NCBI GenBank assembly: GCA_002862205.1
Contig: PKCN01000406.1
Coordinates: 1 to 63,241 of the forward strand
Direction of reading: 5' to 3'
Source: Planctomycetaceae bacterium
GTDB taxonomy: Bacteria; Planctomycetota; Planctomycetia; Pirellulales; Pirellulaceae
Length of the DNA: 63,241 bases
Position numbers and translations under genes: made by a program. Shown here one piece after another: positions 755 to 62,112 of the stretch. Within the stretch, counting starts at the first letter, position 1. Each line of letters starts with the position of its first letter. The notes under the pieces were generated by a model that saw only the letters and a program-made list of their open reading frames with translations, ran no database searches and was not told where the DNA came from.

Positions 755-1615
755 ATGAGACAATTTTGCGCGATTTGCGCTGCGATGATGCTGCTGACTA
801 CCGCAAGTGCGAGCGAACCCGATTTGAAAGCACTGATCGTGGATGGCCAAAACAATCACAATTGGAAAGGCACAACGCCCGTCTTGAAGCAATACCTGGA
901 GCAAACCGGACTCTTTGATGTCGATGTTGCCAGTACCGGGAAAGACACGAGCGACTTCGCTCCCAGGTTCGCTGATTACTCCGTGGTTGTTTTGAACTAC
1001 AACGGCAGTGACTGGCCCAAGGAAACCCAGCAGAAGTTCGTTGAATATGTGCGTGGTGGCGGTGGAGTTGTGGTGTTTCACGCTGCCAACAATTCGTTCC
1101 CAAAATGGAAAGAGTACAACACGATTATCGGCCTTGGCGGCTGGGGTGGCCGGAACGAAAAAGATGGACCCTACATCCGTTACCGAGGTGGCAAGATTGT
1201 GCGCGATGGGTCTGCTGGTCGCGGCGGAAGTCATGGCAGGCAACACGAATACATCGTCGAGACCATTGATACTAAGCACCCAATCACAAAAGGGTTGCCA
1301 GCGAGTTGGCGACACGTATCGGACGAGCTTTATGATCGACTGCGCGGTCCCGCCGAAAACCTACACGTACTGGCCACTGCCTACTCGGATAAATCGACCA
1401 ATGGCACGGGAGAGAATGAACCGGTACTTTTCACGATCAATTACGGCAAGGGACGCGTATTCCACACGGTGATGGGCGACAATGTGCAACAGATGAATTG
1501 CGTTGGTTTTGCCGTTTCGCTGCAACGCGGCGCAGAATGGGCCGCAACTGGCCACGTCACACAGCAAATTCCCGAAAAAATGCCCACCTCTGAGACTGTC
1601 TTACGAGTGAAATGA
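755..1615 (+). CDS. Secreted ThuA-like domain protein
   Basis: A 286-residue protein with a cleavable signal peptide (about residues 1-18, ending ASASEP) followed by one ThuA-like domain of the class I glutamine-amidotransferase-like fold (PF06283). Features of the family include [12 protein letters not shown] near the N-terminus, a [12 protein letters not shown] strand, a [13 protein letters not shown] turn and a late [13 protein letters not shown] segment. Planctomycetes carry many such proteins, usually near sugar-acting genes; the substrate is unknown. In-frame ATGs lie at 689, 731, 749 and 755. I chose 755 because GAAGGAG at 741-747 is 7-8 bases away, while 749 is too close. It is followed 44 bp later by an S9 peptidase on the same strand. 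Confidence 0.85.
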
Positions 1616-1659
1616 CACAATTTATCAACCACAAATTCTTCTTTTACCTACGATAGAGA

Positions 1660-3711
1660 ATGACCATTCAATCGCCCTCCAAACTGGCGTTGGCATTATT
1701 TGCCGGCGGAGTATTCACTTGTCTTGCAATGCTTCAAACCAAAGTAACCAAAGCTGAAATACCGCTTCTGGATCGGGAGCTGTTTTTCGGAAACCCTCAG
1801 ATTTCTGGCGGCCAACTTAGCCCCGACGGCAAGTTCATCTCATTCATGAAGCCCTACAACGGGATCATGAATGTGTGGGTCAAGGAGTTCGCCGAACCGT
1901 TTGAGAAAGCTCGGCCGTTGACCGACTCAAAGCGACCGTTGTATGGCTACACTTGGACTGAAGACGGCAAGTTCATTCTTTTCGTCAAGGATTCTGATGG
2001 CGACGAGAACATGAATCTGTTCGCTGTTGATCCCAATGCGAAACCCGCGGCCGGAAAAGAGACACCCGAATCTCGCAACCTGACGCCACTCAAAGGTGTC
2101 AGGGCGCAGATCATACACGCAAGTCAGAACAATCCCGATTTGTTGTGGGTCGGACTGAATGATCGCGATAAAGCGTGGCACGACCTGTATCGACTGGAAA
2201 TTTCTAGCGGGAAACTGACCCTGGTTTACGAGAATCAAGATCGCATTACCGGCTATGAGTTTGATTGGGATGACAATCTTCGTCTGCTCAGTCAAACGGA
2301 TCCTGCTGGAAATCAGACGCTGTTACGGATAGACGGCGACAATTTGGAGCCGATTTATGAAACCAACGTGAACGAAAATGCTGGCGTCAGCGGGTGGGAC
2401 CCCAAGAATGAGTCGCTGTATTTGATCACCAATAAAGCTGATTTGGATTTGACGACTCTATACAAGATGAATCCCAAAACGAAAGAACTGGAACTCCTCG
2501 AAAGTGATCCCGAGAAGCAAGTTGATTTCGGAGGATTGCGACTCGATCGAAACACGCGGGCGGTGATTTCGACTTCGTACACCGACGATAAGACTCGGTA
2601 CTACTGGCGTGACAAGACTTGGGAAGGCAACTACAAATTTCTACAAGACAGTTTCCCGGGTCGCGAAATCGCATTCCAAAGTTCCACCAACGACTACAGC
2701 AAGTTCTTGATCGCAGTACACGGTGATAAGTACGCAGCGGAAGCCTGGTACTTTGATGCAAAGAAACGGGAGTTGATTCATCAGTACACTCCCCGCCCCG
2801 AACTTAAAGAAGTTGAAGAGCATTTGGCACCGATGATGCCCATTCGTTACGCAAGCAGTGATGGGTTGGAGATTCCCGGATACCTCACCGTACCTGCGGG
2901 TGTTGAAGCGAAAAACCTTCCTGTTGTCGTTCTGGTTCACGGTGGTCCCAAGGGGCCACGCGACAATTGGGGCTACAATTCCCTAGTGCAGTTCCTGGCA
3001 AACCGAGGCTATGCGGTTCTGCAGCCAAACTTTCGGGCAAGCGGTGGATACGGAAAGAATTTCCTTAACGCAGGTGATCTGCAATGGGGAAAGCTGATGC
3101 AGGACGACATCACTTGGGGCGTCAAGCACTTGATTCAAAAGGGTATCGCCGACAAAGATCGCATCGCCATCATGGGCGGAAGCTACGGCGGCTATGCGAC
3201 GCTTGCCGGCTTGGCGTTCACACCAGATCTTTATGCCTGCGGGGTCGATATCGTCGGGCCCAGCAATATTTTCACGCTACTCGATTCAATTCCTGCCTAC
3301 TGGGAGGCAGGAAAAGCTTTCTTGTATGGTATGGTCGGCGACCCAAAAACCGAGGAAGGCAAAGAACGCATCAGGAACGCGAGCCCACTGTTTAGCGCAA
3401 GCAAGATTTCCAAACCGCTATTGATTATCCAAGGCGCCAACGACCCAAGAGTCAAGCAAGCCGAGGCAGATCAAATCGTGATCGCTCTACGGAACAGGGG
3501 ACAGAAAGTGAGTTACCTGTTGGCCGATGATGAAGGTCACGGATTTGCCAAACCGATCAATCGAATGGCCATGTATGCCGAAATAGAAGCATTTCTTGCT
3601 GAGCAGATCGGTGGCCGTGCCCAAAAAGAAATGTCCGACGAAGTCGCCAAACGACTCGAACAACTTCACGTCGACGTCAGCAAAGTTACTCACGAACCGA
3701 GCAAGAATTGA
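1660..3711 (+). CDS. S9-family prolyl oligopeptidase-like peptidase
   Basis: A 683-residue exported serine peptidase. A hydrophobic segment (residues about 8-28) is a signal peptide or anchor. Residues about 40-390 form the beta-propeller with WD40-like/TolB-like repeats ([29 protein letters not shown]). The C-terminal alpha/beta hydrolase domain (about 410-660) has the nucleophile motif GGSYGGY with Ser508, the acid in GANDPRVKQ (Asp595) and the histidine in DDEGHGF (His627). This order and spacing fit family S9 (acylaminoacyl or dipeptidyl peptidase type). Length is usual for the family. Its neighbours are a secreted ThuA-like protein upstream and a Tat-exported isomerase-like protein 52 bp downstream, so peptide turnover outside the cytoplasm is likely. 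Confidence 0.92.
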
Positions 3712-3763
3712 GCCTCGGCCACGACCAGGCACTCAGATCAACTTGAACAACAAGGAGCATATT

Positions 3764-4714
3764 ATGAAACGCCGTGATTTCGTTACCGCTACCGCTGCAA
3801 TCGGTGCTGCAAGCCTAGCCGCAGGTTCCTCAAATGCGGTGGCCAGCCCCGATAACACACCGGAACGGCGGGAGTTCAAACTGAAGTACGCACCACACTT
3901 CAATATGTTTAAACACTCAGCCGGTGATGATCCGATCGACCAACTAAAGTTCGCTGCGGACCAAGGCTTCACTGCCTGGGAAGACAACGGAATGAAGAAA
4001 CGCGACGTTGATCTGCAATCAAAAATTGCCAAGACGATGGAGCAACTTGGAATGCAGATGGGAGTCTTCGTGGCCCATGGCTCGATCGGAAATCTGACCT
4101 TCGCCCGCAAGGACAAGGACGTCTGGGCCTCGGTGCTGAAGGACCTTGGCGATTCCATCGAAGTTGCCAAGCGAGTCAATGCAAAGTGGGTGACCGTTGT
4201 CCCAGGCAATGTCGATGAAACCGGACGAGACCGACTTGCGATGGGCTACCAAACTGCCAACGTCATCGAATTGCTCAGGCGTTGTGCCGAGATTCTTGAA
4301 CCACACAACATCGTGATGGTACTCGAGCCGCTCAACTGGTTCGCCAACCATGGTGGAACTTTTCTGAAAGGTTCACCGCAGGCCTATTCAATCTGCAAGG
4401 CGGTAGACAGTCCCTCCTGTAAGATCCTGTTCGATATTTACCACCAGCAGATCACTGAAGGTAACTTGATTCCAAACATCGGAAAATGCTGGGACGAAAT
4501 CGGCTATTTCCAATGCGGAGACAATCCGGGACGCAAGGAACCCGGAACAGGCGAAATCAACTATCAAAACGTCTTCAAGTACATACACTCACGTGGGTAC
4601 GATGGCGTGCTCGGCATGGAGCACGGCAACTCCAAAAAAGGCGCCGAAGGTGAGCAGGCCGTGATTGAAGCCTATGTCGAAGCTGACAATTTCCAGGTGA
4701 ATAGCAAAACCTAG
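3764..4714 (+). CDS. Tat-exported TIM-barrel protein, hydroxypyruvate-isomerase-like
   Basis: A 316-residue protein. The N-terminus MKRRDFVTATAAIGAA is a twin-arginine signal, ending near residue 30. The rest is an AP endonuclease 2 type TIM barrel (PF01261) of the sugar-phosphate isomerase/epimerase group. The metal-site pattern of hydroxypyruvate isomerases is visible: EPLNW (Glu), LFDIYHQQ (Asp and His), FQCGDNPGRKEPGTGEINY and a final GMEHG (Glu). The start at 3764 has AAGGAG at 3752-3757; an earlier frame opening overlaps the upstream gene and is unlikely. Export of an isomerase-like enzyme is common in planctomycetes but its substrate is not known. Hydroxypyruvate itself is only an inference from sequence likeness. 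Confidence 0.88.
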   Translation: MKRRDFVTATAAIGAASLAAGSSNAVASPDNTPERREFKLKYAPHFNMFKHSAGDDPIDQLKFAADQGFTAWEDNGMKKRDVDLQSKIAKTMEQLGMQMGVFVAHGSIGNLTFARKDKDVWASVLKDLGDSIEVAKRVNAKWVTVVPGNVDETGRDRLAMGYQTANVIELLRRCAEILEPHNIVMVLEPLNWFANHGGTFLKGSPQAYSICKAVDSPSCKILFDIYHQQITEGNLIPNIGKCWDEIGYFQCGDNPGRKEPGTGEINYQNVFKYIHSRGYDGVLGMEHGNSKKGAEGEQAVIEAYVEADNFQVNSKT

Positions 4715-4974
4715 ATTGTGGTCATACCGCGTGGCGCTACTGGAGCAACTCCACCGGAACAGGGACAGCCCATCTTCTTCGCGCTCGCCGACCACAGCGG
4801 CGAGATGCTGAAGGCTCACCTCTTACCCACAGGTTTCCCAGGAGACCGTCTTCCCAGAATCCGGATTTAGCCGCCGCTGACCATGCCATACCGGTCGCCA
4901 AAGACCAAACGCAGCGCAACGACGGTAACACTTGATCCAGCAGGTACAGAACCGTGGCAGGGAGAGGGCCATCC

Positions 4975-6420
4975 CTAATCAACTCGCGAAAAAAACACCT
5001 TCACATCCGGGTGCATGGTGTACAGTCGGAACTGCCTGCCATCATGAATCAACTGACCGCTCGAGTCGTTCGTTCGGATAATTGGATTGCCTGGATACTT
5101 CTTCCATCGAATGAGATCATCTGAAACAGCGACGCAGGTGGTCCAAGGTCCCTGTCGTTTCTCATCTGCGTTTGCATGGTAGATCGCGTAGTAACGCCCC
5201 TGAAGACGGATCACCTGGTTAAGCGCTATGGCATGGCGATCATAGGCAGACGGGCCTCTGGTTAAGACTGGATCATCTTGAATGTTCGTCCAGGTCTTAC
5301 GGTCTGTCGATGTTGCTAACCAGACAGCTTGGTCACCACGCTCGTAGAACAAATACCATGTTCCATCTTCAATCCACAGAGTCGGTGTCCCGTATGGTCC
5401 GGGTGATATTGGAGATCCATCCTGGTTCCGAACATCGAGGCGTCCTTGGTCGGTCCAGTTAATCCCATCGATCGAATTCAGCATGTGTGGGATGTCATCA
5501 CGACCTTCGGCAACCATGTAATACCTGTCGCCATGGCGCACCACATGCACATCCTCAGTCCACGACTCTCCAAAGACCGGATTGGCTGGATGACGTTTCC
5601 AAGTCAGACCATCGGAGGACGTCGCATAACCCAGCATCTTCTTGGCGGATCTTTCACCACTGTAGCCTGTGTACCACAAGTGCCACCTTTCGCCATCCTT
5701 CAAAATATAACCGCGTTCCCGAATTTTTCGGTCCCAGGTTTCAGTGCCGGTTCCAGTGAAAATTGGGTTACCAGGATGGGGTCTGAAGTTTACCAATTCG
5801 TCGGGGAATAAACCGTCATCTTCCGAGTTGGACGCGACCTTGACCGAAATTTCACCCACCGCACGTGTCGCTGCTTCCCTCTCAACCTTCGCCATCTTGA
5901 ACAACTGGACCGATCTGGCTCTGGAAGTGAGTAGTGGGACATTTGAGTTTTCAAGAGACACCCCAGAACGCGCCTTCATCGCAATCCGATAGTTACCCAG
6001 AGCGTCGGGAAAGTTTGTGTCCAAAACCGAGATTGTCTTCGACTGCTCGGCGAGAGTTACATTGGCTCGCATCAGGGCAGTCAGATGCCGATGACTCCAG
6101 CCTGCATAATCTGCCGAAACTGGTTTTAACTGCAGCGGTTTACCATCCAATTCAAGATACAATTGCTTGGCAAGCAACGGCAGAATCAAGTCTCGGTACT
6201 GATTCCACTTTTGAGAAAAATCTTTAACAGGATTCACACCATTCTTACGAAGTTCTTTCGCCAAGGTTACCTGATTCATCGCGAGTGAGTACTCGACCAG
6301 AACGCAATCAGCCTTCACAACGACTTGAACACGACGTTCAATTTCTCCATCGGGAAGCTCATGGGCATGAGCGGACGTAATTCCCAGCAACAGAATCAAG
6401 CCAAGTGACAATCGAGACAT
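4975..6420 (-). CDS. Secreted two-domain protein with five-bladed glycosidase-like propeller
   Basis: A 481-residue protein starting at 6420 (MSRLSLGLILLL), with a signal peptide ending near HAHELPDG. Residues about 20-200 form an unassigned domain (RRVQVVVKADCVLVEYSLA). Residues about 230-480 carry the repeated blades of the GH32/43/68-like five-bladed fold, with turns such as DGERWHLWYTGYSGE, YATSSDGLTWKRHPANPVF, VRHGDRYYMVAEGRD and EDGTWYLFYERGD. I cannot confirm catalytic acids from sequence alone. An upstream frame opening (6597) runs into the neighbouring gene and is rejected. It is the last gene of a four-gene minus-strand run behind three PQQ-like propellers, 143 bp after the nearest. 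Confidence 0.75.
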   Translation of the reverse strand: MSRLSLGLILLLGITSAHAHELPDGEIERRVQVVVKADCVLVEYSLAMNQVTLAKELRKNGVNPVKDFSQKWNQYRDLILPLLAKQLYLELDGKPLQLKPVSADYAGWSHRHLTALMRANVTLAEQSKTISVLDTNFPDALGNYRIAMKARSGVSLENSNVPLLTSRARSVQLFKMAKVEREAATRAVGEISVKVASNSEDDGLFPDELVNFRPHPGNPIFTGTGTETWDRKIRERGYILKDGERWHLWYTGYSGERSAKKMLGYATSSDGLTWKRHPANPVFGESWTEDVHVVRHGDRYYMVAEGRDDIPHMLNSIDGINWTDQGRLDVRNQDGSPISPGPYGTPTLWIEDGTWYLFYERGDQAVWLATSTDRKTWTNIQDDPVLTRGPSAYDRHAIALNQVIRLQGRYYAIYHANADEKRQGPWTTCVAVSDDLIRWKKYPGNPIIRTNDSSGQLIHDGRQFRLYTMHPDVKVFFSRVD

Positions 6421-6563
6421 TGCCAACCTTTTTTGTAAGAACAGGTTTTGCAGAAGCGCTGTCGCAAACATCATGGAGGTCGCATTGCAACCCTCATCCG
6501 ACAGCCCTATTGGAGTCACATCACCCTCGCCGTGGGAGGATGATGCGGAGGATTCAATCAGCG

Positions 6564-8117
6564 CTACTTGGCACTTGCGTCTTCTTCGATCACCCACAGC
6601 TTGGTTGGGCTCTCGCTCATGTAGTAAAGGCGGCCATTCGCTGCAACGGGCGTTGTACGGAGCTTTGTGCCATCATTGTGCTCAATCTCCGCAAGTAACT
6701 CCATCTCTTTACCGTGTTTGAAAACGTACATGATCCCATCGTCGTTGCCGACAAAGACCTTACCATCGGCGACACATGGCGACGACCAAGTATTGGCGAA
6801 CATGTTTTCTGTCCAATACAGCTCGCCAGTTTTAGCATCCAGACAATGAACGTGCCCGCCGAGTTCAGTGATGTAAAGAATGTCATCCATGATCGCACAG
6901 GTCGACATCGACCGGCCAAAGTAGTACGTCTCGTCAGTCGGACTTGGTTTACCCTCGAGTACTGGACCACCGTAGTGCCATATTTGTGCTGAATCAGGAT
7001 TGGGTTTTTCTTTCAGCTCGGGTTCGCGAGCCACAACCAAGGTCGGTGAGACGTCTTTGTCCTGACTTGTTGGTGTCTTTGTGATGTCGATGCAATAAAG
7101 GTGGCCAACACCGGTGTCGTGCTCGGGGTCCTGCCCGACGGCGATATAAAGCTTGTTCTTATAGACGACTGGAGTGCCAACAAAATCGTTTGCGGTACCA
7201 CGCCCGCCGAGTCTGTAAACGGCGTCTTTTGGATTGCAGTCGAATTTCCACAAAAGTTCGCCGGTCGGCGTAAAGCTGTAGATCCAACCGTCTCCACCGG
7301 GGAAGATCAGCTGTGGCTTACCGTCTGGCTGGGCATAGGTTGGATTTGACCACTGACCATGCATGATGTTTCGTCGCGATTGACCCGGCAAGTTACTGGA
7401 CCAAAGAACTTTACCGCTGTTCTTGTCAAGTGCCAGAAAGCTTGGCGAATTTTCCGAGGGAACACGTAAGTGTGCCGCATCGACCCCGTTACTGGTAACG
7501 AGAAACAACGTATCGCCAACGACCATTGGTGAGCATGTCGCAATGTTGTGTGGGAACACATTCAGCTCGCCGATCATGTCGACTTTCCAAAGGATTTTGC
7601 CAGTCTTGAGTTCAGCGCAAATCGCTTCGCAACGATTCCCGATGTACCAGAAACGATCGCCTTCAATGCAAGGTGTTGAACAAATCCCCTGTTGTGGCCA
7701 GTCCCAAACGCGGCCAGCCTTGAGTTTGTCGTGGACGATTTGCCAGATGAACTCCCCTTTCTTTTCATCGAAGCACATCATGACCCCCTTGTCGCCCTTG
7801 ATGGCAGAATCACGAGGGAACTCATTATTCGTACCGATCAGGATCCGCCCGTCACTCATTACCGGACCGCCGTAGGCACGCGAACCCAACTGAATGGAGT
7901 ACGCCACGTTTGTGCCATCTTCGATATCCCAGGATTCAGGAATTCCCTTGACCAGAGGGTTCGCAAAGTTGCGCTGTAAATGCCCGCCATACATGCGCCA
8001 GTCTTTTGGCGAAAGCTTCAGTAATTCTGGGGAATCCTGTGCCCTCACCGGGGCCAAGCACAGCAGGGTCTGCCAAGCCAGTGCCAGCAACAAGGTTCTT
8101 GTGATTGTGTTTCGCAT
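6564..8117 (-). CDS. Secreted PQQ-like beta-propeller protein (third of three)
   Basis: A 517-residue protein with a signal peptide (MRNTITRTLLLALAWQ to PVRAQD). It contains an eight-bladed quinoprotein-like propeller of the PQQ_2/PQQ_3 type, with blade motifs such as FDEKKGEFIWQIV, ELKTGKILWKVDM, LDKNSGKVLWSSN, YSFTPTGELLWKFD and LDAKTGELYWTENM. Planctomycete proteins of this type are normally not PQQ dehydrogenases; they keep the tryptophan-docked blades but lack clear cofactor ligands, and a scaffold or sensor role is possible. The start at 8117 was chosen because it opens the signal peptide; the frame extends upstream into the next gene. It lies 58 bp behind the 742-residue paralogue. Confidence 0.85.
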   Translation of the reverse strand: MRNTITRTLLLALAWQTLLCLAPVRAQDSPELLKLSPKDWRMYGGHLQRNFANPLVKGIPESWDIEDGTNVAYSIQLGSRAYGGPVMSDGRILIGTNNEFPRDSAIKGDKGVMMCFDEKKGEFIWQIVHDKLKAGRVWDWPQQGICSTPCIEGDRFWYIGNRCEAICAELKTGKILWKVDMIGELNVFPHNIATCSPMVVGDTLFLVTSNGVDAAHLRVPSENSPSFLALDKNSGKVLWSSNLPGQSRRNIMHGQWSNPTYAQPDGKPQLIFPGGDGWIYSFTPTGELLWKFDCNPKDAVYRLGGRGTANDFVGTPVVYKNKLYIAVGQDPEHDTGVGHLYCIDITKTPTSQDKDVSPTLVVAREPELKEKPNPDSAQIWHYGGPVLEGKPSPTDETYYFGRSMSTCAIMDDILYITELGGHVHCLDAKTGELYWTENMFANTWSSPCVADGKVFVGNDDGIMYVFKHGKEMELLAEIEHNDGTKLRTTPVAANGRLYYMSESPTKLWVIEEDASAK

Positions 8118-8175
8118 TGATTGATGAACTCCGATGTGTATCAAGCGGAATCGCCCGCCCAAGGTAAAGCTTGTT

Positions 8176-10404
8176 TTATTGAACGAGGATGTTGTCATAA
8201 TAAATCGTTGTGCCAGGCTTTGGCGGTTGAATACCGAGAGCCGAACCGTAAATGCCGGGTGATCCCGAGGGATTCGGATTCTCATCGGTCAGGTCCAACA
8301 TCCACTCGGATGGCTCTGCTTCGCCTTTCTTCCAAGCCTTGCCCAGAACATGAGAGTGTTCATCCTCAGCTACCACTTTTATCTTTAGCCTGTACCAGGT
8401 ATCTGGCTCCCAAGCGAAATCGATTTCCTTTGCGACCCGCGGAATGGCATCCCATGCGGATACGCGGAGCTTCTGTTCGTTGCCAACCATTTGCAAAATG
8501 TAACGATGCGCTGTCACGCCCATGTTGGGCATATTGTCACGAACTTTCTCACCCATCACATCTGCAGAAACGGTGTAGCCTTTCATGTCTGGTGTACCAA
8601 TAAACGCATACCACTGACGATAGAAAGGAACCGCAATCGTCGCGGTCTTCATCAGCACTGTGTTGCCATCATCGAGTTGTTTTGTGACATATCGCAACTG
8701 CGTGTTCGTCCACCCACCGGGAACCAAACCGGCTCCAGTGCTTTCAAAATCCTCTCGATACGGCAAGGTTGGAACCTGCCGAACACGAACGCTTGCCTGC
8801 AAATCGCCTGCGGTTGCGACGAGGCTACCACTTTGTCCGCCAGAGATCTTTGGTGCGGTGAAACTGCCACCAGCAATTTCACCCTTCAGGACTGGTCGTA
8901 TGGCATCTTTGCCGAGACCGGGCCCAGGCTTCATTGCAGCCAGCTTCAATTCGATCGGTGTTGTCCTGATGAACTGTCCCTTCGCATCAAACAAATTTGC
9001 TTCAAAGTCAACTCGTTCACCTGCTACAACAGTGACTTCCGCTGGCACAACTTGCAATTGCGCGGGCTCGCCCGACGGATTGGCCAGAGGAACGCCAGGC
9101 TGCTCTGGAATTTTGATTGGCGACTTTTTGTATTTTCCAAGACAGTAAAATTCTTCCGTCGTTCCAAAGTAAACGCAACCATTTGCGATCGCAGCTGAAC
9201 CCTGCACTTCCACGTCGAACTTCGGATCAGAAGGCTGAAAACGTTTTCGGGAGATTCTCTTACCATCGTTGTTCGCATCCAGAATATGAAAGTAGCCATG
9301 AACCGAACTAAGATAGATTTTGCCATCCCCATAAGCCGGCGAACCGGTGCAGTTGCGGCCAAACTTCGCTCGCCACAAACGCTCGCCAGTCTTTGCATCG
9401 AAACAATACAAACGGCCTTGGCGATCAGGCAGAAACAGCTTGCCCCCCTGCAACAACGGTGAAGGGTATTTGAATTCGATGCCGTCTTTCTCCCAAACAA
9501 TCTCGGGCTCTGCACCACCAATGTCGAGACAGGCGACTCTACCAACGGTTGCACGCCCGGGAATCTCTTCGCCGTGGGCCGCGTAAAGCAAGTTGCCATC
9601 CACGACAGGAGCGGGATTCATGGCCCCGTTTCCAAACTCAAAGCTCCAGACTTTTTTGCCTGTGTTGACCTGGAATGCATGCAGATTTCCATCGCCAGCA
9701 CCGCTGATCAAAATTCGCTGCCCGTTGATCGTCGTAACCACGGGAATGCAACGATAGGTATTGGATGGACGGATGCCAGTGGTACTCCACCAAACCATCT
9801 CACCGGTGGTCTTGTCGAACGCGACAAACCGGACACCTCCACCACCATGGGCACCCCAGTTGGAACTGATCATGCTGATGATCACAAGGTTACCTTCGAC
9901 GATCGGACTGGTAACGCGACCACCGTAGCCAGTGATGCGCCCAAACTCTTCGGTCATCGACTTTTGCCATTTGACCTCGCCAGTTTCACCATCAAAACAG
10001 AACAACAATCCCTGCGTTCCATGGGCATAGACATTTCCGGTCTCTGGGTCACCAACCGGCACGGTCCAACCAAGCCGAATACTCACAATCGGCGTAAAGA
10101 AAATGCCAAAGCGATGCTCCCAGATCACATCACCAGTTCTTGCATCCATGCAAATGACGCGTTCCTGTTCGTCGGCGTCTTCACCGATGCGGCTGACGGC
10201 ATAAACCTTGTCGTTCATCACGATGGGAGTCGAACGGCAACTTACATCCTTTTTCATCCACAACACATCGTCGATGTCGGAAGGTAACTCAGTCTCGCGC
10301 GAAACACCGTTCTTTTCAGGGCCACGCCAATTCGTCCAGTCGCCGGCGAAAACCGAACCAGCGCACAATACGAGAGTTGCGAATAGTACGACACTAAGTT
10401 TCAT
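8176..10404 (-). CDS. Secreted PQQ-like propeller with C-terminal jelly-roll-like domain
   Basis: A 742-residue protein with a signal peptide (MKLSVVLFATLVLCAGSVFA). Residues about 20-440 form a PQQ-like propeller that opens with DWTNWRGPEKNGVSRE, a typical first blade in planctomycetes, and repeats GEVKWQKS, GEMVWWST, GKKVWSFE, GERLWRAKF. Residues about 465-560 look like an Ig-like linker (VVPAEVTVVAGERVDFEANL). Residues about 570-742 resemble a concanavalin-like domain, with LPYREDFESTG at its start and YYDNILVQ at the end. The start at 10404 has CGGAG about 9 bases upstream. It sits between two shorter propeller paralogues, 79 bp after the first and 58 bp before the third. Confidence 0.85.
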   Translation of the reverse strand: MKLSVVLFATLVLCAGSVFAGDWTNWRGPEKNGVSRETELPSDIDDVLWMKKDVSCRSTPIVMNDKVYAVSRIGEDADEQERVICMDARTGDVIWEHRFGIFFTPIVSIRLGWTVPVGDPETGNVYAHGTQGLLFCFDGETGEVKWQKSMTEEFGRITGYGGRVTSPIVEGNLVIISMISSNWGAHGGGGVRFVAFDKTTGEMVWWSTTGIRPSNTYRCIPVVTTINGQRILISGAGDGNLHAFQVNTGKKVWSFEFGNGAMNPAPVVDGNLLYAAHGEEIPGRATVGRVACLDIGGAEPEIVWEKDGIEFKYPSPLLQGGKLFLPDRQGRLYCFDAKTGERLWRAKFGRNCTGSPAYGDGKIYLSSVHGYFHILDANNDGKRISRKRFQPSDPKFDVEVQGSAAIANGCVYFGTTEEFYCLGKYKKSPIKIPEQPGVPLANPSGEPAQLQVVPAEVTVVAGERVDFEANLFDAKGQFIRTTPIELKLAAMKPGPGLGKDAIRPVLKGEIAGGSFTAPKISGGQSGSLVATAGDLQASVRVRQVPTLPYREDFESTGAGLVPGGWTNTQLRYVTKQLDDGNTVLMKTATIAVPFYRQWYAFIGTPDMKGYTVSADVMGEKVRDNMPNMGVTAHRYILQMVGNEQKLRVSAWDAIPRVAKEIDFAWEPDTWYRLKIKVVAEDEHSHVLGKAWKKGEAEPSEWMLDLTDENPNPSGSPGIYGSALGIQPPKPGTTIYYDNILVQ

Positions 10405-10483
10405 TACGTGGTGCTCCGAGTTGGTCTGGTTCATTGATTGCAAAATTCACGGCAAATGAAAGGGGAAATTGAAATGGCTCGCT

Positions 10484-11848
10484 CTACTTGATGCGATAGC
10501 AGAAAAGCAGATCCTGGTCGCGGAGATACAGCATTCCGTTTGCAATCACGGGACGCGACCAACGCTTTGCGTTCGATGCGATCAACTTCGAGGTATCGGG
10601 AAGCGCGAAGCGGCCTTTCTCGACCCACTCTTCGGCAGACGCCTCAATCAAACTGACCTCTGCTGTCTTTTCGCCGAAAAGATACAGATGACCGTCCGCG
10701 AAAATCAATGAGCCATCGCCAACACTTTTGTTGGCGCGTTGGTACCAAGCGATGTCTCCCGTGGAAAACTCCTGGCAAACCCAGCCGCGACGAAAAGATG
10801 TCCCGAACACGTGGCCTCCATGCAAAACGAATCCACCGATCGAGTTTTTCATGTTTCGACTGCTGTAAACCTTTTCTACGTCAAATTTTTCTGACCCGCT
10901 TTTTGACACACGAATCATTTCGCAGCCGTCACCCGTGCTTGCATAAACGTAATTCTCGAAGCAAACCGGAGTCGGGATGACGACATCCGAGTAGGGTCGA
11001 TCCCGTTCGTAATACCAAAGCTTTTGGCCGTCTACTGCGCTCACCGCCGCAACCCCAAACTGTGTCATGACGATGTACTGCTTCACACCATCAATCGTGG
11101 CGACAATCGGCGATGCGTACGTTGATTCTTCATCCAGATCCTGGCTTCGCCACACAACCTTGCCGTTGGTTTTGTCAAGTGCGACGACGAGTCCCGCGCC
11201 ATCCGTGCTGCCCGGGGTGCAGATCAGATGGTCGCCATCAACCAGTGGTCCCCAGCAGAATCCCCAACCTACAGTTTTAGGCTCTCCCGCGCTCACGTTC
11301 TTGATCGAACCACCAAGATCACTGACCATGTTCAGTTGCCACTTCAGCGTGCCATCGGTCGAGGCGCACACGAGTTGTCCATCGCCAGCCAATGCAAAAA
11401 TCAAATCGCCGTCAACCGTGGGAGCAGCACGCGGTCCCGCACCCCACGAATTGCCTTCAAAATCAAAGCTCTTTTGATTGATGGGTAACGACCAAATCTC
11501 TTTACCGCTCGCAGCATCAAGGCAGAAAAGTTCAGCCTTTCCCTGTCGCCCGCCAGTGAGATAGACGCGTCCGTCAACGACAGCAGGCGAAGAGTAGCCG
11601 ACACCCGCGTTCCTGAAGGACCAGGCGAGAGTTGGACCTGCTTCTGGCCAAGAAGACAGCAGACCAAGCTCAGGCGATTGGTTGTTCCGATCGGCACCTT
11701 GGATCTGTGGCCAATCGTCGGCACAAACCCATGTGCCATGGCATACCCCCAAAAAAAGGAGTGCGATCGCGAGGACTCCTTGGGACCGAAAATGGTTTAC
11801 TCGATGCCAATCTGGAAAATATTGGTGCAATAGTTGGCCCAAGATCAT
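10484..11848 (-). CDS. Secreted PQQ-like beta-propeller protein (first of three)
   Basis: A 454-residue protein with a hydrophobic export segment (about residues 25-45, GVLAIALLFLGVCHG) and then DDWPQIQGADRNN, the common opening of planctomycete PQQ-like propellers. Blades include LDAASGKEIWSLP, STDGTLKWQLNM, LDKTNGKVVWRSQD and AVDGQKLWYYERD. It is probably the promoter-proximal gene of the four-gene run to 4975. I chose the ATG at 11848; a TTG at 11869 also opens the frame. The long N-terminal region before the hydrophobic core is unusual, and the true start may differ. It may be exported or membrane-anchored; no enzymatic residues can be claimed. Confidence 0.82.
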   Translation of the reverse strand: MILGQLLHQYFPDWHRVNHFRSQGVLAIALLFLGVCHGTWVCADDWPQIQGADRNNQSPELGLLSSWPEAGPTLAWSFRNAGVGYSSPAVVDGRVYLTGGRQGKAELFCLDAASGKEIWSLPINQKSFDFEGNSWGAGPRAAPTVDGDLIFALAGDGQLVCASTDGTLKWQLNMVSDLGGSIKNVSAGEPKTVGWGFCWGPLVDGDHLICTPGSTDGAGLVVALDKTNGKVVWRSQDLDEESTYASPIVATIDGVKQYIVMTQFGVAAVSAVDGQKLWYYERDRPYSDVVIPTPVCFENYVYASTGDGCEMIRVSKSGSEKFDVEKVYSSRNMKNSIGGFVLHGGHVFGTSFRRGWVCQEFSTGDIAWYQRANKSVGDGSLIFADGHLYLFGEKTAEVSLIEASAEEWVEKGRFALPDTSKLIASNAKRWSRPVIANGMLYLRDQDLLFCYRIK

Positions 11849-12191
11849 TTTATCGTTCCGACAAATCAAAGAAGTTCTTGAAACCAGCGTTTATGTCGGC
11901 TCGGGACATGCAATTTGCCTGAAGAATCTGAGCAACATTTAACATCTGGCAAGAGAGGTAAATTAGAGCAGAAGCACTAATGCACAACAACTGCATATAC
12001 AACATAATTGCACGAGAGTCAGTCGGCCAGCTTGTAATGGATCTCGACGATGATGATTCTGCGATCTTGCTGCCCGGCCGCCAGAGAACGCCCGCTTTAT
12101 CAACGCAAGCAAGTTGGGGTGATGAAATGAAGACCCCACCAGGCACGTTGTCATGGTTGTTGGGATTCCGCAGAAAGAGCGATCCACGGAT

Positions 12192-12255
12192 ATCCGCAGA
12201 ACGAGCAATCCGCAGAACGAGCAATCCGCAGAACGAGCAATCCGCAGAACGAGCA
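12192..12255. repeat. Tandem repeat, 16 bp x 4
   Basis: The unit atccgcagaacgagca occurs four times without change at 12192-12207, 12208-12223, 12224-12239 and 12240-12255. Degenerate half units flank it (gatccacgg before, atccacggggatccgcag after). It lies in the gene-poor stretch upstream of the COG0523 gene. Confidence 0.93.
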
Positions 12256-13207
12256 ATCCACGGGGATCCGCAGAAGCCAGCGAATTTCCACCGGGCTGGT
12301 GCCGCTGACTAAGTCAGTTTTTGCTGATACGACTGGTACACAAAAGGCTCACTGCTGACCCTTCTCTGCGGCAGTCCGCCATTGCGATCGATGCAATCCC
12401 AGCCACTGGCCGTTGGAATCCCAACTCAACTTGAGAACCTTTTGCATCAACCCTCGCATCTGCGCATGCCTTGCCGATTCCACCCACAACAATCACATCG
12501 TCCCGTCTTGTTTGCCAATTGCGATCTACCTCCCCAAGAGCTTCCACTCCAATCAGAAACTCGAACCTGTCCAATTCATTTGCCGCCGCCGCTTGATTGC
12601 ACCAAACCGGTGGAATTCAACCCCGCGTTGTCAGCTAAAACAACACCAAGTCCTCGGGGGTCTCATCCAACATCTGTGACAGTACTGAAATGATCTCAAG
12701 GCGTTTACAGAACATTGTGTTGCTCACCTGATCATTTGAAACAGGTGCCTGCGGCGGTGGACGCCATATCCTGTCAGGAATTATTAACTGTGTTGCACCA
12801 GTTGCTTCAGTTGCTTCAGGCACGCAGCCCACATCGAAGCCCGCAACCGATCGATTTTAATTCAACGCTTCCTCAAGTTGCCCGGAATGCAAATCAGATC
12901 TCCGGCTACGTTGCAATCGATGCAACCGTGGTCCGTCTCAAAGATTTCATCCTGGTTTGCAATCGCACGGCCACTAGCAACCCCGATCTCACAGAATCCA
13001 CTCTGAATCACAGCAACCCGTCGTCCACGAATTTTCGTACAAATTCAGCTCTGCAAAGTTGTATTACCGTACCCAATTGAACCAGCGAGCTCGGGGCAGT
13101 GGCATTCGTAATCGTCAGCTCAAACCACACCACAGACGGTAATTGCGAATTGGTCCGTCTGCTTCCAGCCGGTTGAATAATGCCGCTACTCAATCAACCA
13201 CCACGCC

Positions 13208-13232
13208 GAGTTGCAACTCTTGTGCAATTGCA
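13208..13232. promoter_or_regulatory. Paired perfect palindromes upstream of COG0523 gene
   Basis: Two perfect palindromes stand side by side: GAGTTGCAACTC (13208-13219) and TGCAATTGCA (13223-13232), directly followed by TATAAG (13233-13238), which could be a -10 element. The coding start lies about 135 bp further on. Paired dyads of this kind often bind a dimeric regulator, and a Fur/Zur-type repressor would fit the genes downstream. That is inference only: the sequence does not match the proteobacterial Zur box that I know. Confidence 0.3.
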
Positions 13233-13373
13233 TATAAGGCGAATCGCTTCGGCGACTACGCTGAAATCCGATTCGACTCCGAGACATCCGTCCCGCGTGA
13301 ACGGATCAGATCGGCACCGCTGATGTCGCTCAAGTTTTCAAACTGCTTCGCCCTACCTTCACCCATTGCTCTT

Positions 13374-14363
13374 ATGAGTCCAACAAACCAGAACGGCCCG
13401 CTACCAGTCACTATCCTGTCCGGGTTTCTTGGTGCCGGGAAGACCACTTTACTCAATCATGTTCTTGCGAATCGTCAAGGAATGCGAGTTGCCGTGATCG
13501 TCAACGACATGAGTGAGGTCAACATCGACGCGGCTCTCGTTCGTGACGGAGGAGCAAATCTTTCGAGAACGGAGGAGCAATTGGTGGAGATGAGCAACGG
13601 ATGCATCTGTTGCACACTCCGCGAGGACTTGTTGATCGAAGTTGCAAAGTTAGCACGCGAAGGGCGATTCGATTATTTACTGATCGAGTCAACAGGCATT
13701 AGCGAGCCGATGCCCGTTGCAGAGACTTTCACTTTCCAAGATGAACATGGAAATAGTCTGTCCCTGCTCGCACAATTGGACACGATGGTTACCGTGGTTG
13801 ACGCAGGTAACTTCTTCAAGGACTTCGGTACGTGGGAAGATCTTACTGACCGCCGCCTTGGTGTTAGCGAGGATGACCATCGCAACATCGTTGACTTACT
13901 GGTTGATCAGATTGAGTTTGCAAATGTAATCATCATCAACAAGATTGATTTGGTGACGCCTTTCGAGTTGGAACAACTGGAGCAGATCATTCGTCGTCTG
14001 AATCCGCAAGCCAAAATACTGCTTTCCCGGGAGAGCAGTGTGCCTCTCCAAGACGTCATGGGCACAGGACTCTTCCGGCTTAGCGAGGCCGAAAACTCGC
14101 CTGATTGGCTTGAAGTACCACGTGGTCAGGAACAGACCGAGACCGAGGAGTACGGCATCAGTCATTTCGTATACAGACGTAGTCGACCATTCCACGCCGC
14201 TCGGCTCGCCGATGCCATGAACGGAGGTTTTCGCGAAGGGGAGCCGATGGACGGTGTTCTGCGAAGTAAAGGTCTGATGTGGATCGCATCACGAAACAAT
14301 TGGGCTTATGACTGGTCCCAGGCTGGCTGTTCGATACGCATGAATCCCGGTGGCTTATGGTAG
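13374..14363 (+). CDS. COG0523 (CobW/P47K) GTPase, ends at an in-frame TAG
   Basis: The readable part is 329 residues. It has the full G3E GTPase domain: Walker A GFLGAGKTT (residues 17-25), the metal-binding GCICC motif (Cys77, Cys79, Cys80), LLIESTGISEP (Walker B region) and INKIDLV. These proteins are GTP-dependent metal chaperones, and a large subgroup is tied to zinc limitation. The frame stops at TAG 14361-14363, within the first strand of the CobW C-terminal domain (NPGGLW). The same frame then runs on for 90 codons with the rest of that domain. The start at 13374 opens just before the GTPase domain; an upstream frame extension to 13143 has no family likeness. A trimmed GTPase without its C-terminal domain is unlikely to work normally. 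Confidence 0.85.
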   Translation: MSPTNQNGPLPVTILSGFLGAGKTTLLNHVLANRQGMRVAVIVNDMSEVNIDAALVRDGGANLSRTEEQLVEMSNGCICCTLREDLLIEVAKLAREGRFDYLLIESTGISEPMPVAETFTFQDEHGNSLSLLAQLDTMVTVVDAGNFFKDFGTWEDLTDRRLGVSEDDHRNIVDLLVDQIEFANVIIINKIDLVTPFELEQLEQIIRRLNPQAKILLSRESSVPLQDVMGTGLFRLSEAENSPDWLEVPRGQEQTETEEYGISHFVYRRSRPFHAARLADAMNGGFREGEPMDGVLRSKGLMWIASRNNWAYDWSQAGCSIRMNPGGLW

Positions 14364-14636
14364 GCGGCCGCCCCGAAGGACGAATGGCCTGACGACAAGA
14401 AGGCGATTGCAGCGATCAACACAAAAATCACAGGAGCCTACGGTGACCGTCATCAGGAGTTGGTGTTCATCGGACATGGGATGAATGAGGCCCGCATTAG
14501 CGAAAGCCTTGATCAGTGCCTCCTGACCGATTCCGAGTACGCTCAAGGTCCAAAAACATGGGTAGGCTTTGATGATCCATTTCCAACAGTCGAGCTCGAT
14601 CTGGATGAAGATGAATCGATGGAACTGTGGCAGTGA
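14364..14636 (+). pseudogene. Detached C-terminal domain of the COG0523 gene
   Basis: These 90 codons follow the TAG in the same frame and end at TGA 14634-14636. They contain the hallmark of the CobW C-terminal domain (PF07683): GDRHQELVFIGHGMNEARI and a later LDQCLL. Relatives usually read Trp-Trp at the break, so a single TGG to TAG change explains it. There is no start codon or ribosome binding site here to make it separately. No further disruption is present, so the change is recent, a sequencing error, or subject to readthrough. Confidence 0.8.
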
Positions 14637-14787
14637 ATTCTAAATTATCCGCGGTCAATCCTCTTTTGTAATGCGTGGTCAATCAGTCGACGCTGACTAT
14701 GCGTCAGCGTTTAAGTTCTTGCCTGACAAGTGCGACCCGCCCAAGGCTATGCCAATAGTCCCACAACACACGACAAGGAACGAAACA

Positions 14788-15258
14788 ATGGGTGCATCAT
14801 CCTTCTCGGAAAGAAACACCATCGAACAGGTTGAGGAGGGAACCGAATTGGCCCCCAAGTTCGATGAGCAGGGTCTGATCCCTGTTGTCACGACAGACTT
14901 TATCTCCGGTGAAGTACTCATGCATGGATACATGAACGCCGAGGCGCTGACGCAAACGATCAAATTGAGTGAGGCTGTCTATTGGAGCCGCAGTCGCAAG
15001 TGTCTTTGGCACAAGGGCGGTACAAGCGGGCTGGTACAGCGGGTTCGCGAGATGCGAATTGACGACGATCAGGATTGCGTCTGGTTACGTGTGGATGTCG
15101 AGGGTGGTGCCAGCTGCCATGTCGGGTATCGATCCTGTTTCTACCGATCCGTGCCCGTCGGCGACCACGCCAGCCAGACTTTGGAATTCACGGAGCGACA
15201 GAAAGTTTTTGATCCGAAGACCGTGTACGGCGATGCTCCTAATCCAACTCAACTTTGA
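14788..15258 (+). CDS. hisI: Phosphoribosyl-AMP cyclohydrolase, variant zinc site
   Basis: A 156-residue HisI protein, which opens the purine ring of phosphoribosyl-AMP in histidine synthesis. Conserved segments are [26 protein letters not shown] and [12 protein letters not shown]. The canonical metal motif DCDxD reads DDDQD here (residues 92-96): the three acidic positions that bind magnesium are kept, but the first zinc cysteine is Asp93, with a Cys at 97 instead and one extra residue before Cys110 and Cys117. The start at 14788 has AAGGA at 14774-14778. It lies 151 bp behind the COG0523 gene and outside any his operon. HisI paralogues next to COG0523 genes are known as zinc-sparing copies, which is the reading I favour; a main copy elsewhere in the genome would be expected. 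Confidence 0.88.
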
Positions 15259-15377
15259 ATCTCTCATCGGCAATGAAAAACATCCTGAACTCCACGACTC
15301 AATATCAGCATGGCGGCCTCGCATCTGTCAACAATCTTGTGTCAGCAATGTGAATTCCACTGGACTGAAGAAAACAC

Positions 15378-15578
15378 ATGGAACACCTGTCGCTCTTTCT
15401 CAATTCCCTCATCATGGCGATGGCGATGTCCGCGCCGTACCTGATACTTGGGTACGTTGCGGCGGCGTTGATCAAAGAGTACATCTCGCGCGAATCACTG
15501 GCCAAGCATTTGGGTGACGAGGGCATTCGACCGATCATGAATGCGGTTGGCATTGGGGCGCTGCTATCGATCTGGTGA
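15378..15578 (+). pseudogene. N-terminal fragment of PF03773-type permease
   Basis: A 66-codon frame starts at 15378 and reads like the first two helices of the predicted permease family PF03773 (ArsP/DUF318): SAPYLILGYVAAALIKEYIS then LAKHLGDEG. Full members have 300 or more residues, and the next part should carry a Pro-Leu-Cys-Ser-Cys type motif. Here the family likeness ends at GIGALL (about 15564) and a stop follows four codons later at 15576-15578. The sequence after the break belongs to a DUF1826 gene. The fragment is probably not functional. Confidence 0.7.
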
Positions 15579-15874
15579 CCGCTTTCCTGGACCAGTTCGA
15601 CCTTCAACAGGCAAGACTGCGCATCGAGATCACTCGGACGCAATCATGCCGGAAATTCCACAGCGACAATGTTCATGTTCGACTGGTCACAACGTATCTC
15701 GGCCCCACCACAGAGTATCAGTATGCGGGCACGAATGAGATCCACACCGCTCCACTCGGCGGGCTCGTGTTCCTCAAGGGACACGGTCACCCAAACCACC
15801 GGGACACCGTGCATCATCGGTCACCGGAAGTACCCGGCGGTGAAAAACGCCTATGCGTTGCGATAGACTGCTGA
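15575..15874 (+). pseudogene. C-terminal half of DUF1826 protein
   Basis: About 100 codons match the second half of DUF1826 (PF08856): CRKFHSDNVHVRLVTTYLGP, a LVFLKGHGHP segment and VHHRSPEVPGGEKRLCVAID. Family members are about twice as long, and the N-terminal half is missing. The family-like frame can be followed upstream to about 15565, where permease sequence begins in a different frame. A GTG at 15575 could start a short product but has no clear ribosome binding site. DUF1826 genes are often found beside COG0523 genes, so this belongs to the same module. Confidence 0.65.
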
Positions 15875-16038
15875 GTAAGGATGACGAAATACGTCACCTG
15901 CTCAATCCTGCCCGGAAAATCGCAAACCGAAGTCTGATCGTTACCCCGTTGCTGGCGGACGAAAAGAAGAGTCAAGTGTTCGGACCAATCATTGCCGATT
16001 TCTTCGCCAATCATCCAAGCCAAGGCTCTCACAAATGA
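15853..16038 (+). CDS. Doubtful short ORF ahead of selO
   Basis: A 61-codon frame whose stop TGA (16036-16038) overlaps the start ATG of selO (16035), the arrangement seen in coupled genes. Its text (RSLIVTPLLADEKKSQVFGP, then IIADFFANHPSQ) looks protein-like but I recognise no family. A better ribosome binding site (GTAAGG) leads to an ATG at 15887 in another frame that ends after 18 codons. It may be the tail of a further gene removed in the deletion that cut DUF1826. Confidence 0.25.
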   Translation: MRCDRLLSKDDEIRHLLNPARKIANRSLIVTPLLADEKKSQVFGPIIADFFANHPSQGSHK

Positions 16039-17540
16039 ATCCGTCCAAGATCGCGATTTCGCTGAACCTCGAGCATAGCTACGCCGATCAGTTGGCGGAT
16101 TTTTTTGCCTCCGTTTCGCCGGCGCCGGCTCCCAAACCAAGCTTGTTGCAATTCAACAAAACACTGGCCTGCGAACTTGGTCTCGATCAACAAGAACTTA
16201 CACCGGAGGTTCTGTCACATGTCTTCTCCGGAAATGAATTGCCCCGCGATGCCCAACCGATCGCACAGGTGTATGCGGGTCACCAGTTCGGTAATTTCGT
16301 ACCACAATTGGGAGACGGTCGGGCACTTCTGCTCGGTGAATTGATCGATCAGCAAGGGAATCGGCGCGATATTGCCTTGAAGGGATCAGGGCGAACACCA
16401 TTTTCACGCGGTGGTGATGGTAAGGCCGCCGTGGGCCCTGTGTTACGGGAGTACTTGATCGGCGAAGCGATGCACGCTCTGGGGATACCCACAACCCGTG
16501 CGCTCGCTGCAGTCGCAACTGGCGAACGCGTCATGCGAGAACGTCCACTCCCGGGCGCAGTTCTCACTCGTGTAGCTGCCAGCCATGTCCGCGTTGGCAC
16601 ATTTCAGTACTTTGCTGCTCGCCGTCAAGTTGAGCATCTTCGAAAATTGGCAGACTACGTCATTCAGCGGCACTACCCCAAAGCTTCTGAATCCGAAAAT
16701 CCATACCTTGCGCTGCTGCAGGGTGTGGCTGATCGTCAGGCCGCGTTGGTTGCACGTTGGATGCTGGTTGGATTCATTCATGGCGTCATGAATACCGACA
16801 ATATGGCAATCTCAGGTGAGACGATCGACTATGGGCCATGTGCATTCATGGAATCATATCATCCCGAGACGGTCTTCAGTTCGATTGATCACGCCGGACG
16901 CTACGCCTACATCAACCAACCATCCGTCGCGCTCTGGAACCTCGCAAGATTCGCGGAAACACTTTTGCCACTACTGAGCGAGGAAGATAGCGACGACACC
17001 TTGGCCGAAGCGACCGCAGTTCTTGAAACATTCATGCCGGCATTCCAGCGACATTGGTACATCGGCGCAAAAGCCAAACTGGGATTGGCCAATCCCAACG
17101 AACCTGAAAGTGTCAGTGATTCAGAACACGAGTTGGTTGATGACTGGCTTGGCCTGCTAACAACGAACGAGGTCGACTACACCCTTGCATGGCGCCAACT
17201 GGCAGAAGCAGCGGATGGAACCGTGAGCAAGCTTGCACCTCTGTTTAGAGAGCATGATCAACTCAACGCCTGGTTAGAACGATGGAGGAGATTGCACAAC
17301 GGCATTCCAGCATCCCAGATCGCTTCTGCAATACGCGCAGCAAACCCGCTCTACATTCCCCGCAACCATCTTGTTGAAGAAGCACTCGCTGCGGCTTCCG
17401 AGAATGCCGATCTAGCACCGTTTGAAAGCCTACTGGAAGTCGTGCAGCAGCCTTTCGATGAGAAGCCTGAATGCACCCGCTACGCGATGCCGGCTCCCAC
17501 AGAATTCACAACCGAATACCAAACGTTTTGCGGAACATGA
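16035..17540 (+). CDS. selO: Protein adenylyltransferase SelO (YdiU, UPF0061)
   Basis: A 501-residue pseudokinase-fold enzyme that transfers AMP to Ser, Thr or Tyr of target proteins. Family segments are clear: IAQVYAGHQFGNFVPQLGDG, LKGSGRTPFSRGGDGKAA, LREYLIGEAMHALGIPTTR, HGVMNTDNMAISGETIDYGP with the metal-binding Asn/Asp pair, and RNHLVEEAL. The C-terminus EYQTFCGT keeps the penultimate-region cysteine that is selenocysteine in many eukaryotic members and takes part in redox control. Length is normal. The ATG overlaps the stop of a doubtful short ORF. SelO is linked to oxidative-stress response in other bacteria; nothing in the context adds to that. Confidence 0.95.
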   Translation: MNPSKIAISLNLEHSYADQLADFFASVSPAPAPKPSLLQFNKTLACELGLDQQELTPEVLSHVFSGNELPRDAQPIAQVYAGHQFGNFVPQLGDGRALLLGELIDQQGNRRDIALKGSGRTPFSRGGDGKAAVGPVLREYLIGEAMHALGIPTTRALAAVATGERVMRERPLPGAVLTRVAASHVRVGTFQYFAARRQVEHLRKLADYVIQRHYPKASESENPYLALLQGVADRQAALVARWMLVGFIHGVMNTDNMAISGETIDYGPCAFMESYHPETVFSSIDHAGRYAYINQPSVALWNLARFAETLLPLLSEEDSDDTLAEATAVLETFMPAFQRHWYIGAKAKLGLANPNEPESVSDSEHELVDDWLGLLTTNEVDYTLAWRQLAEAADGTVSKLAPLFREHDQLNAWLERWRRLHNGIPASQIASAIRAANPLYIPRNHLVEEALAAASENADLAPFESLLEVVQQPFDEKPECTRYAMPAPTEFTTEYQTFCGT

Positions 17541-62090: not shown

Positions 62091-62112
62091 TTTTTTTCCA
62101 GTCCACAGCGCC

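Follow-up and report, generated by a model that had tools for sequence, protein, structure and literature searches.

Four genes stand in a row on the forward strand of a 63,241-nucleotide (nt) contig of a Planctomycetaceae bacterium (PKCN01000406.1; the whole stretch is called the window here), and only one of them is intact. What did this locus do, and is its damage the end of a zinc-sparing response? An initial annotation, made from the letters of the window alone, named a COG0523 GTPase, a phosphoribosyl-AMP cyclohydrolase (HisI) with an altered zinc site, a PF03773-type permease, and a DUF1826 protein, and read them as a zinc-limitation module in decay. Our comparisons make it very probable that what survives here is left over from a zinc-limitation operon that a Zur-type regulator probably repressed and that has been broken by an in-frame TAG codon and a deletion between 7-nt repeats. 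It would thus represent a familiar type of system, with zinc limitation as its most likely role, found in a new state.

The window is contig C13 of a draft genome (G000; 7.77 Mb, 451 contigs, 2.88% contamination). The GTPase and DUF1826 proteins were searched for in 40 genomes, namely, this genome and 39 relatives. Below, G numbers denote genomes (G005 and G017 belong to the same genus as G000), L numbers fetched loci, and C numbers contigs.

Gene order and breaks in the window

The core of the locus comprises the following features.

13374 to 14363, forward strand: COG0523 (ZigA-like) GTPase gene, from Pfam, motifs, and open reading frame (ORF) reading; it ends early at an in-frame TAG
14364 to 14636, forward strand: cobW frame past the stop, with the rest of CobW_C, open to the TGA at 14634 to 14636
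14788 to 15258, forward strand: hisI2, phosphoribosyl-AMP cyclohydrolase, intact; 156 amino acids (aa) from the likely ATG, the TGA ending at 15258
15378 to 15578, forward strand: N-terminal remnant of a PF03773-type permease, about 65 of 393 aa
15568 to 15574, forward strand: deletion junction at the 7-nt repeat CGATCTG, from comparison with G017
15575 to 15874, forward strand: C-terminal remnant of DUF1826, 99 of 183 aa, profile positions 89 to 202 of 202

Pfam matches agreed with the four families and their order on the forward strand. Members of the COG0523/ZigA group have a GTPase P-loop, a CxCC metal motif, an NKxD motif, and a complete CobW_C domain. The window GTPase matched PF02492 (cobW; E value, 5.7e-58) and carries GFLGAGKT (P-loop), CICC, and NKID ahead of the TAG. 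The TAG that the initial annotation had noted (14361 to 14363) is in frame: it removes the last 91 codons and cuts CobW_C at profile position 62 of 94, and 90 further codons stay open to 14636, in a segment that still matches CobW_C positions 62 to 94. The best NCBIfam family for the truncated protein was the zinc metallochaperone ZigA (NF038288), with 495.7 bits against a cutoff of 600, the shortfall being due to the truncation; the chaperone role is putative. The present gene, with its incomplete CobW_C and subcutoff score, is broken; its ancestor was presumably a COG0523/ZigA member.

The fusion of the last two genes by a deletion was likewise confirmed. The permease remnant (66 aa) matched PF03773 with an E value of 1.9e-6 and 27.7 bits, under the 32.3-bit cutoff, and its 66 codons join, in a different frame, the last 99 codons of DUF1826, the only part of that protein left to match PF08856 (E value, 8.8e-21). 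In G017, the permease gene and the DUF1826 gene each contain a single copy of the junction heptamer CGATCTG, the two copies lying 3,779 nt from each other. Relative to G017, the window lacks about 3.8 kb, which held most of the permease gene, a gene for a 237-aa protein (p237), a second cysteinyl-tRNA synthetase (CysRS) gene (cysS2), and the first half of DUF1826. The loss of p237 and cysS2 goes beyond the initial annotation, as do an operator-like palindrome at 13211 to 13227 and an opposite-strand cobW fragment, both described below.

The same locus is broken differently in two related species

The GTPase query matched 14 of the 40 genomes, its own included (E values up to 1e-40), and DUF1826 was found in two, the window's own and G017. 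Contig C4 of G017 carries the locus at 94 to 96% DNA identity. Its GTPase gene has lost 537 nt internally and in frame at the 9-nt repeat GAGCCGATG, and its hisI2 product is 97% identical to that of the window; a 393-aa permease, p237, a 510-aa CysRS (CysS2), and a 183-aa DUF1826 protein are also encoded, and most of SelO has been lost through a deletion at the repeat CCTCGA. On contig C92 of G005, where the locus is held at 90 to 97% DNA identity, the GTPase runs at 97% identity to residue 279, at which point a deletion fuses it to the last part of DUF1826; hisI2 is missing, and SelO was matched over its full length. In the window, SelO is the neighbor of the module.

16035 to 17540, forward strand: SelO gene, open frame

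We infer from the three species together an ancestral order of cobW-hisI2-permease-p237-cysS2-DUF1826-selO. The initial annotation had held that close relatives with the same arrangement would speak against decay; the two relatives show different arrangements. All three copies of this GTPase gene (G000, G005, and G017) are broken, each in another way, and one probable zinc-limitation module has thus been broken three ways in three species while paralogues remain.

Two members of the composite set are lost from the window. For p237, there was no match in Pfam (E values up to 0.1) or NCBIfam (E values up to 0.01). CysS2 of G017 matched NCBIfam cysS with 375 bits (cutoff, 340) and is a distinct paralogue: each of four genomes searched has one other CysS match, at 38 to 39% identity over about 240 to 260 aa, and CysS2 is present only in G017 among the four. 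Aligned to a solved CysRS, it conserves the C, C, H, and E that we take to be the zinc ligands, and so seems to keep its zinc site. Such CysRS paralogues are described as keeping that site (PMC2770081).

These comparisons bear on whether the breaks in the window are errors of assembly or sequencing, the locus being intact in the cell. The sequence comes from a draft in many contigs with some contamination, and a single-base stop is a typical kind of error. The 3.8-kb deletion, however, has a clean heptamer junction whose repeat occurs once in each G017 parent gene, and both G005 and G017 carry other deletions at the same locus, that in the G017 GTPase gene also at a repeat (9 nt). We consider such errors a very unlikely explanation of the locus.

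The shared locus lies in a block of high identity. The window and G017 are 94 to 96% identical from position 96 to 16072 and about 77% identical from 17607 on; against G005, identity is mostly about 95% up to about 22.4 kb (84 to 91% at 11.5 to 13.4 kb) and then about 80%. Left of the window, G017 and G005 are about 75% identical to each other, climbing to 92% inside it. Among 22 genomes searched (G017 was not one of them), a gene at 10484 to 11869 had a match of 96% identity in G005 and one of 73% in a genome belonging to another genus; the remaining matches were short and weak. The block is best read as a past exchange of a stretch of at least 16 kb between species, with separate losses afterward.

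Evidence that the module probably served zinc limitation

Gene content is the first guide to function. The Zur-regulated COG0523 clusters described by Haas et al. in 2009 (PMC2770081) share with our locus a COG0523 GTPase accompanied by HisI and CysRS paralogues, and DUF1826 is named in the legend of Figure 4 of that paper. The composite of G000, G017, and G005 holds the whole combination of COG0523, zinc-enzyme paralogues, and DUF1826 that marks a zinc-limitation operon, and the window alone holds part of it. Unlike the clusters described there, the window has a HisI2 with one Asp in its zinc site and is a broken copy. A second hisI tied to zinc limitation is also known from Pseudomonas protegens, where hisI2 is listed among zinc-limitation genes (PMC6103462).

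The same gene families stand beside metal genes at other loci, which answers the condition, set in the initial annotation, that neighbors with no link to metal genes would count against the module. The named loci closest by GTPase sequence are mostly from Pirellulaceae-type planctomycetes. At L121 (Planctomycetaceae), genes for ZnuA, an ABC ATPase, and ABC-3 (all by Pfam) are followed on one strand by a 124-aa ORF, DUF1826, and COG0523 (the last two by tblastn); at L094, this order was seen from ORF reading and tblastn alone. In G096, of the same phylum, one strand carries znuABC, a Fur-family gene, a FAD oxidoreductase gene, a gene labeled p184, hisI2, and two COG0523 genes.

The permease leaves room for a module devoted to another metal or an oxyanion (copper, arsenic, or manganese): PF03773 bears the name ArsP_1, and the best NCBIfam matches of the G017 permease were a Cu/Zn efflux family and SaoE, both under the cutoff. 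Against this stand the combination of COG0523, CysRS and HisI paralogues, and DUF1826, which is the published zinc-cluster pattern (PMC2770081), and the ZnuA-type importer genes that adjoin the same families in L121 and G096, although these are other loci than that of the window. A different metal is therefore quite unlikely. Three lines, the ZigA score, the related loci, and the palindrome, point to zinc.

The full set would have comprised a ZigA-like COG0523 zinc chaperone, a HisI with an altered site, a PF03773 permease, p237, a second CysRS, and DUF1826. Zinc shortage would turn the operon on; its GTPase would then direct the little zinc available to client enzymes, and HisI2 and CysS2 would act as reserves for two zinc-dependent enzymes. 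After the TAG and the deletion, HisI2 would be the only member of the set still makeable whole, and redundancy with paralogues may have permitted the decay. The gene content, the breaks, the arrangements in the relatives, the palindrome, and the missing zinc-ligand cysteine are observed directly; zinc control, chaperone action, and the activity and metal of HisI2 are what we infer from sequence.

A palindrome resembling a predicted Zur signal upstream of cobW

Control by zinc is suggested by a sequence ahead of the GTPase gene.

13211 to 13227, forward strand: operator-like palindrome TTGCAA-N5-TTGCAA (11 of 12 positions), upstream of cobW

The palindrome overlaps a promoter-like pair, TTGCAA/TATAAG, with 16-nt spacing; in an alignment of the window with G017 and G005, an 11-column gap falls right after TATAA. 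Its score was reached in 0 of 300 first-order Markov resamplings, the kind of shuffle used throughout. In a census of 30 cobW upstream regions (the second cobW gene of L171, matched from residue 35, was dropped beforehand), 16 had a palindrome of at least 10/12: 14 of the 21 first (more similar) cobW genes, 3 of these 14 being this one locus in G000, G005, and G017, versus 2 of the 9 second cobW genes. The predicted Zur signal of Desulfovibrio, ATGCAACNNNGTTGCAT, from a 2004 comparative study (PMC545781), has the same core half-site and spacing; it differs in coming from another phylum and in being itself a prediction.

Fur-family genes occur near such sites. At G017:C71, one is divergent from cobW across the palindrome region, where the site is weak (9/12). 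Within 15 kb around the Fur-family gene of G000:C132, there are three sites of at least 11/12; shuffles averaged 0.15, and 0 of 100 reached three. The window operon was probably under a Zur-type Fur-family repressor when zinc was plentiful.

Several observations weigh against the reading of the locus as a broken, Zur-controlled zinc operon. None of the genomes searched yielded the module complete and unbroken, the order having been assembled from three broken copies, and an error of sequencing or assembly may have produced the TAG. The palindrome is absent (below 10/12) before 7 of the 21 first cobW genes and was first noticed in the same upstream regions that were later counted. A window-wide search allowing up to three mismatches found 17 palindromes versus 13.1 expected, which is not above chance, and no listed match lies ahead of the metal importer in the window. 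For C132, the contrast is milder against real sequence, as 15 other loci hold 13 such sites in 275,561 bases; one of its three sites precedes a prepilin-peptidase-like gene, and its Fur-family gene has only weak, subcutoff PerR/Fur matches in NCBIfam.

A stricter palindrome pattern with the promoter-like tail matched a single place in the entire genome, on C55, where an ORF begins about 290 nt downstream. Thioredoxin-like lipoprotein ORFs were seen at L180:1816-2337 (G000:C55), L172:8691-9182 (reverse strand), and L166:7548-8015 (reverse strand); the C55 ORF is 60% identical to that of L172 and 65% identical to that of L166, both of which adjoin second cobW genes.

HisI2 has an altered zinc site

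The one intact gene raises a question of its own: can a phosphoribosyl-AMP cyclohydrolase work with a zinc cysteine replaced by aspartate, sparing zinc? HisI2 belongs to the family by profile score (PF01502, PRA-CH, E value of 7e-29 and 99.9 bits against a cutoff of 27; NCBIfam NF000768, 150.7 bits against 126) and by its SRS, W-x-KG, and CH...C residues. The initial annotation was right that its zinc site is altered: DDDQDC replaces the DCDxD of other HisI proteins, and CHVGYRSC is kept. In MtHISN2, the catalytic zinc is bound by Cys126, Cys142, and Cys149, described as universally conserved, and Asp125, Asp127, and Asp129 are equated with Asp85, Asp87, and Asp89 of 1ZPS (PMC8102479). HisI2 shares with these canonical enzymes the fold family (by sequence), the three Asp residues, and the CH...C ligands in addition to the motifs above. 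It departs from the canonical three-cysteine site in that, when aligned with 1ZPS, it has an Asp at the first zinc cysteine (Cys126 of MtHISN2). The metal site of the enzyme sits at the interface of two chains.

The change is constant within its clade. DDDQD and CHVGYRSC were present in all 25 HisI2-type sequences (16 from the same phylum, 1 from a Chthoniobacterales contig, and 8 from alphaproteobacterial plasmids), a set chosen by similarity to the window protein and hence describing one clade. A partial HisI2-type match in Prosthecobacter (L105; 68%), outside the 25, stops short of the metal site. In a tree of 49 rows, the 17 nonplasmid HisI2 sequences formed one side of a branch with support of 100/98, and the 32 others (one gene was entered twice) all carry DCDxD, that is, Cys at the first zinc position; the bootstrap was unsettled and long branches were flagged, so that the joining of the HisI2 clade to other HisI proteins is unsure. 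The extra Cys of the window protein was considered as a compensating ligand and rejected, the residue after DDDQD being Cys in 8, Thr in 9, and Ala in 8 of the 25.

HisI2 was matched in 12 of 392 genomes of the phylum, its own included (E values up to 1e-45). All HisI genes were then checked with PF01502 in 17 genomes, namely, 16 HisI2 carriers and G005. Twelve of the 16 carriers, nine of them members of one genus, yielded no HisI other than HisI2; this suggests an active enzyme, and some genomes seem to depend on it alone. Both kinds of HisI occur in four genomes (G000, G017, G096, and G103), and G005 has ordinary HisI only. In all four genomes with both kinds, HisI2 lies beside a COG0523 gene or within 5 kb of one. 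No COG0523 match was detected near HisI2 in the 12 HisI2-only genomes (tblastn, E values up to 1e-6; 12 to 20 kb covered for G029, G031, G035, and G087 and 3.5 kb for the other eight). The idea that HisI2 is purely a zinc-starvation paralogue does not hold in general, since it is the sole PF01502 match in those 12 carriers.

Among plasmids, 750 records had a HisI match, 15 of them at 60 to 80% identity. Eight of the 15 were fetched, and 7 of these 8 loci had a COG0523-like match within 6 kb; the annotated ones include genes for DUF1826, Fur, FolE, ThrS, and metal ABC proteins. A Psychrobacter HisI near a COG0523 gene carries the ordinary DCDxD, so zinc-linked HisI proteins appear to be of both kinds, in agreement with what is described for the set in PMC2770081.

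We offer only tentatively, as a possibility we would not bet on, that HisI2 is a distinct phosphoribosyl-AMP cyclohydrolase subfamily that would function in the absence of the usual three-cysteine zinc site, hold another divalent metal at an Asp-Cys-Cys site, act as a zinc-sparing backup beside COG0523, and fully replace the zinc enzyme in other planctomycetes. Our literature searches surfaced no paper announcing a HisI with Asp at the first zinc position; we do not claim that none has been reported.

State of decay and functions that remain

Selection on the pieces was compared between the window and G017 by the ratio of nonsynonymous to synonymous substitution rates (dN/dS). For hisI2, dS was 0.185 and dN was 0.011 (ratio, 0.06). 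Ratios were 0.11 for the first 113 codons of the GTPase gene, 0.20 for the DUF1826 remnant, 0.32 for the permease remnant (two changes only), and 0.18 for a neighboring intact gene. The 90 codons past the stop gave 0.17, from 6 synonymous and 4 nonsynonymous changes, which have little power. As the broken parts show no clear sign of relaxation so far, the breaks fit the "recent" loss proposed in the initial annotation.

These values might also describe a reduction to a working core, in which the truncated GTPase still acts and hisI2 plus a shortened chaperone suffice under selection. The GTPase motifs do precede the stop, hisI2 has a ratio of 0.06, and the codons past the stop lack clear relaxation. 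In 13 aligned sequences, however, 12 of 89 columns in the region past the stop are invariant, so a conserved part was lost, and the deletions took the middle of the GTPase in G017 and its end in G005, leaving no common core. We regard a working core as unlikely and retain the broken operon as the explanation.

The related loci and the relatives' breaks support a decaying zinc-limitation module, but "loss of the zinc-sparing response" went too far. Our data do not support a loss of the zinc response as a whole, since the genome still has COG0523 paralogues, Fur-family genes, ordinary HisI, and an importer, and since hisI2 is both intact and conserved. The initial annotation had suggested looking for a second hisI, a zur gene, and a complete COG0523 paralogue. 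In addition to hisI2, two more complete HisI genes and another truncated where its contig ends were found (C99, C152, and C353), which may be paralogues or contamination. Contig C15 carries two COG0523 paralogues whose frames run uninterrupted for 440 and 409 aa, the first with a 10/12 palindrome, and the module's function is thus probably backed up. Three Fur-family genes were found. The metal importer also proved intact, 44 kb from the module, as had been claimed.

59989 to 63033, forward strand: ZnuA-type metal importer (ZnuA binding protein, ABC ATPase, and ABC-3 permease), frames intact

The binding protein has Asp runs near its C terminus (aa 397 to 420 of 452; 61177 to 61248 in the window), a possible metal-binding tail. 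On the other side of the module lies a further cobW piece.

12847 to 13089, reverse strand: degenerate cobW fragment, PF02492 positions 5 to 86, with two TGA stops

This fragment, which sits inside the stretch alignable with G017 and G005, is probably an older relic outside the operon.

Other proteins recur in these neighborhoods. Related uncharacterized proteins stand beside COG0523 in planctomycete clusters (L207:10375-10929, reverse strand; L168:12148-12813; L172:10731-11345); those of L168 and L172 are 59% identical to each other and 25 to 29% identical to that of L207, and the two that were scanned had no Pfam match. Membrane proteins of the MerC family, 54 to 55% mutually identical, are encoded at L208:9942-10628 (reverse strand; G000:C132) and L166:10342-11106 (reverse strand); the L208 protein, assigned by Pfam, lies near the palindrome-bearing Fur-family gene, and that of L166 adjoins a cobW gene of G016. 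A FAD oxidoreductase (Pyr_redox_3) recurs near COG0523 or hisI2 at L011:8939-10069, L206:8149-9282, and L207:11044-12162 (reverse strand), and similar-looking ORFs are present in L168 and L172.

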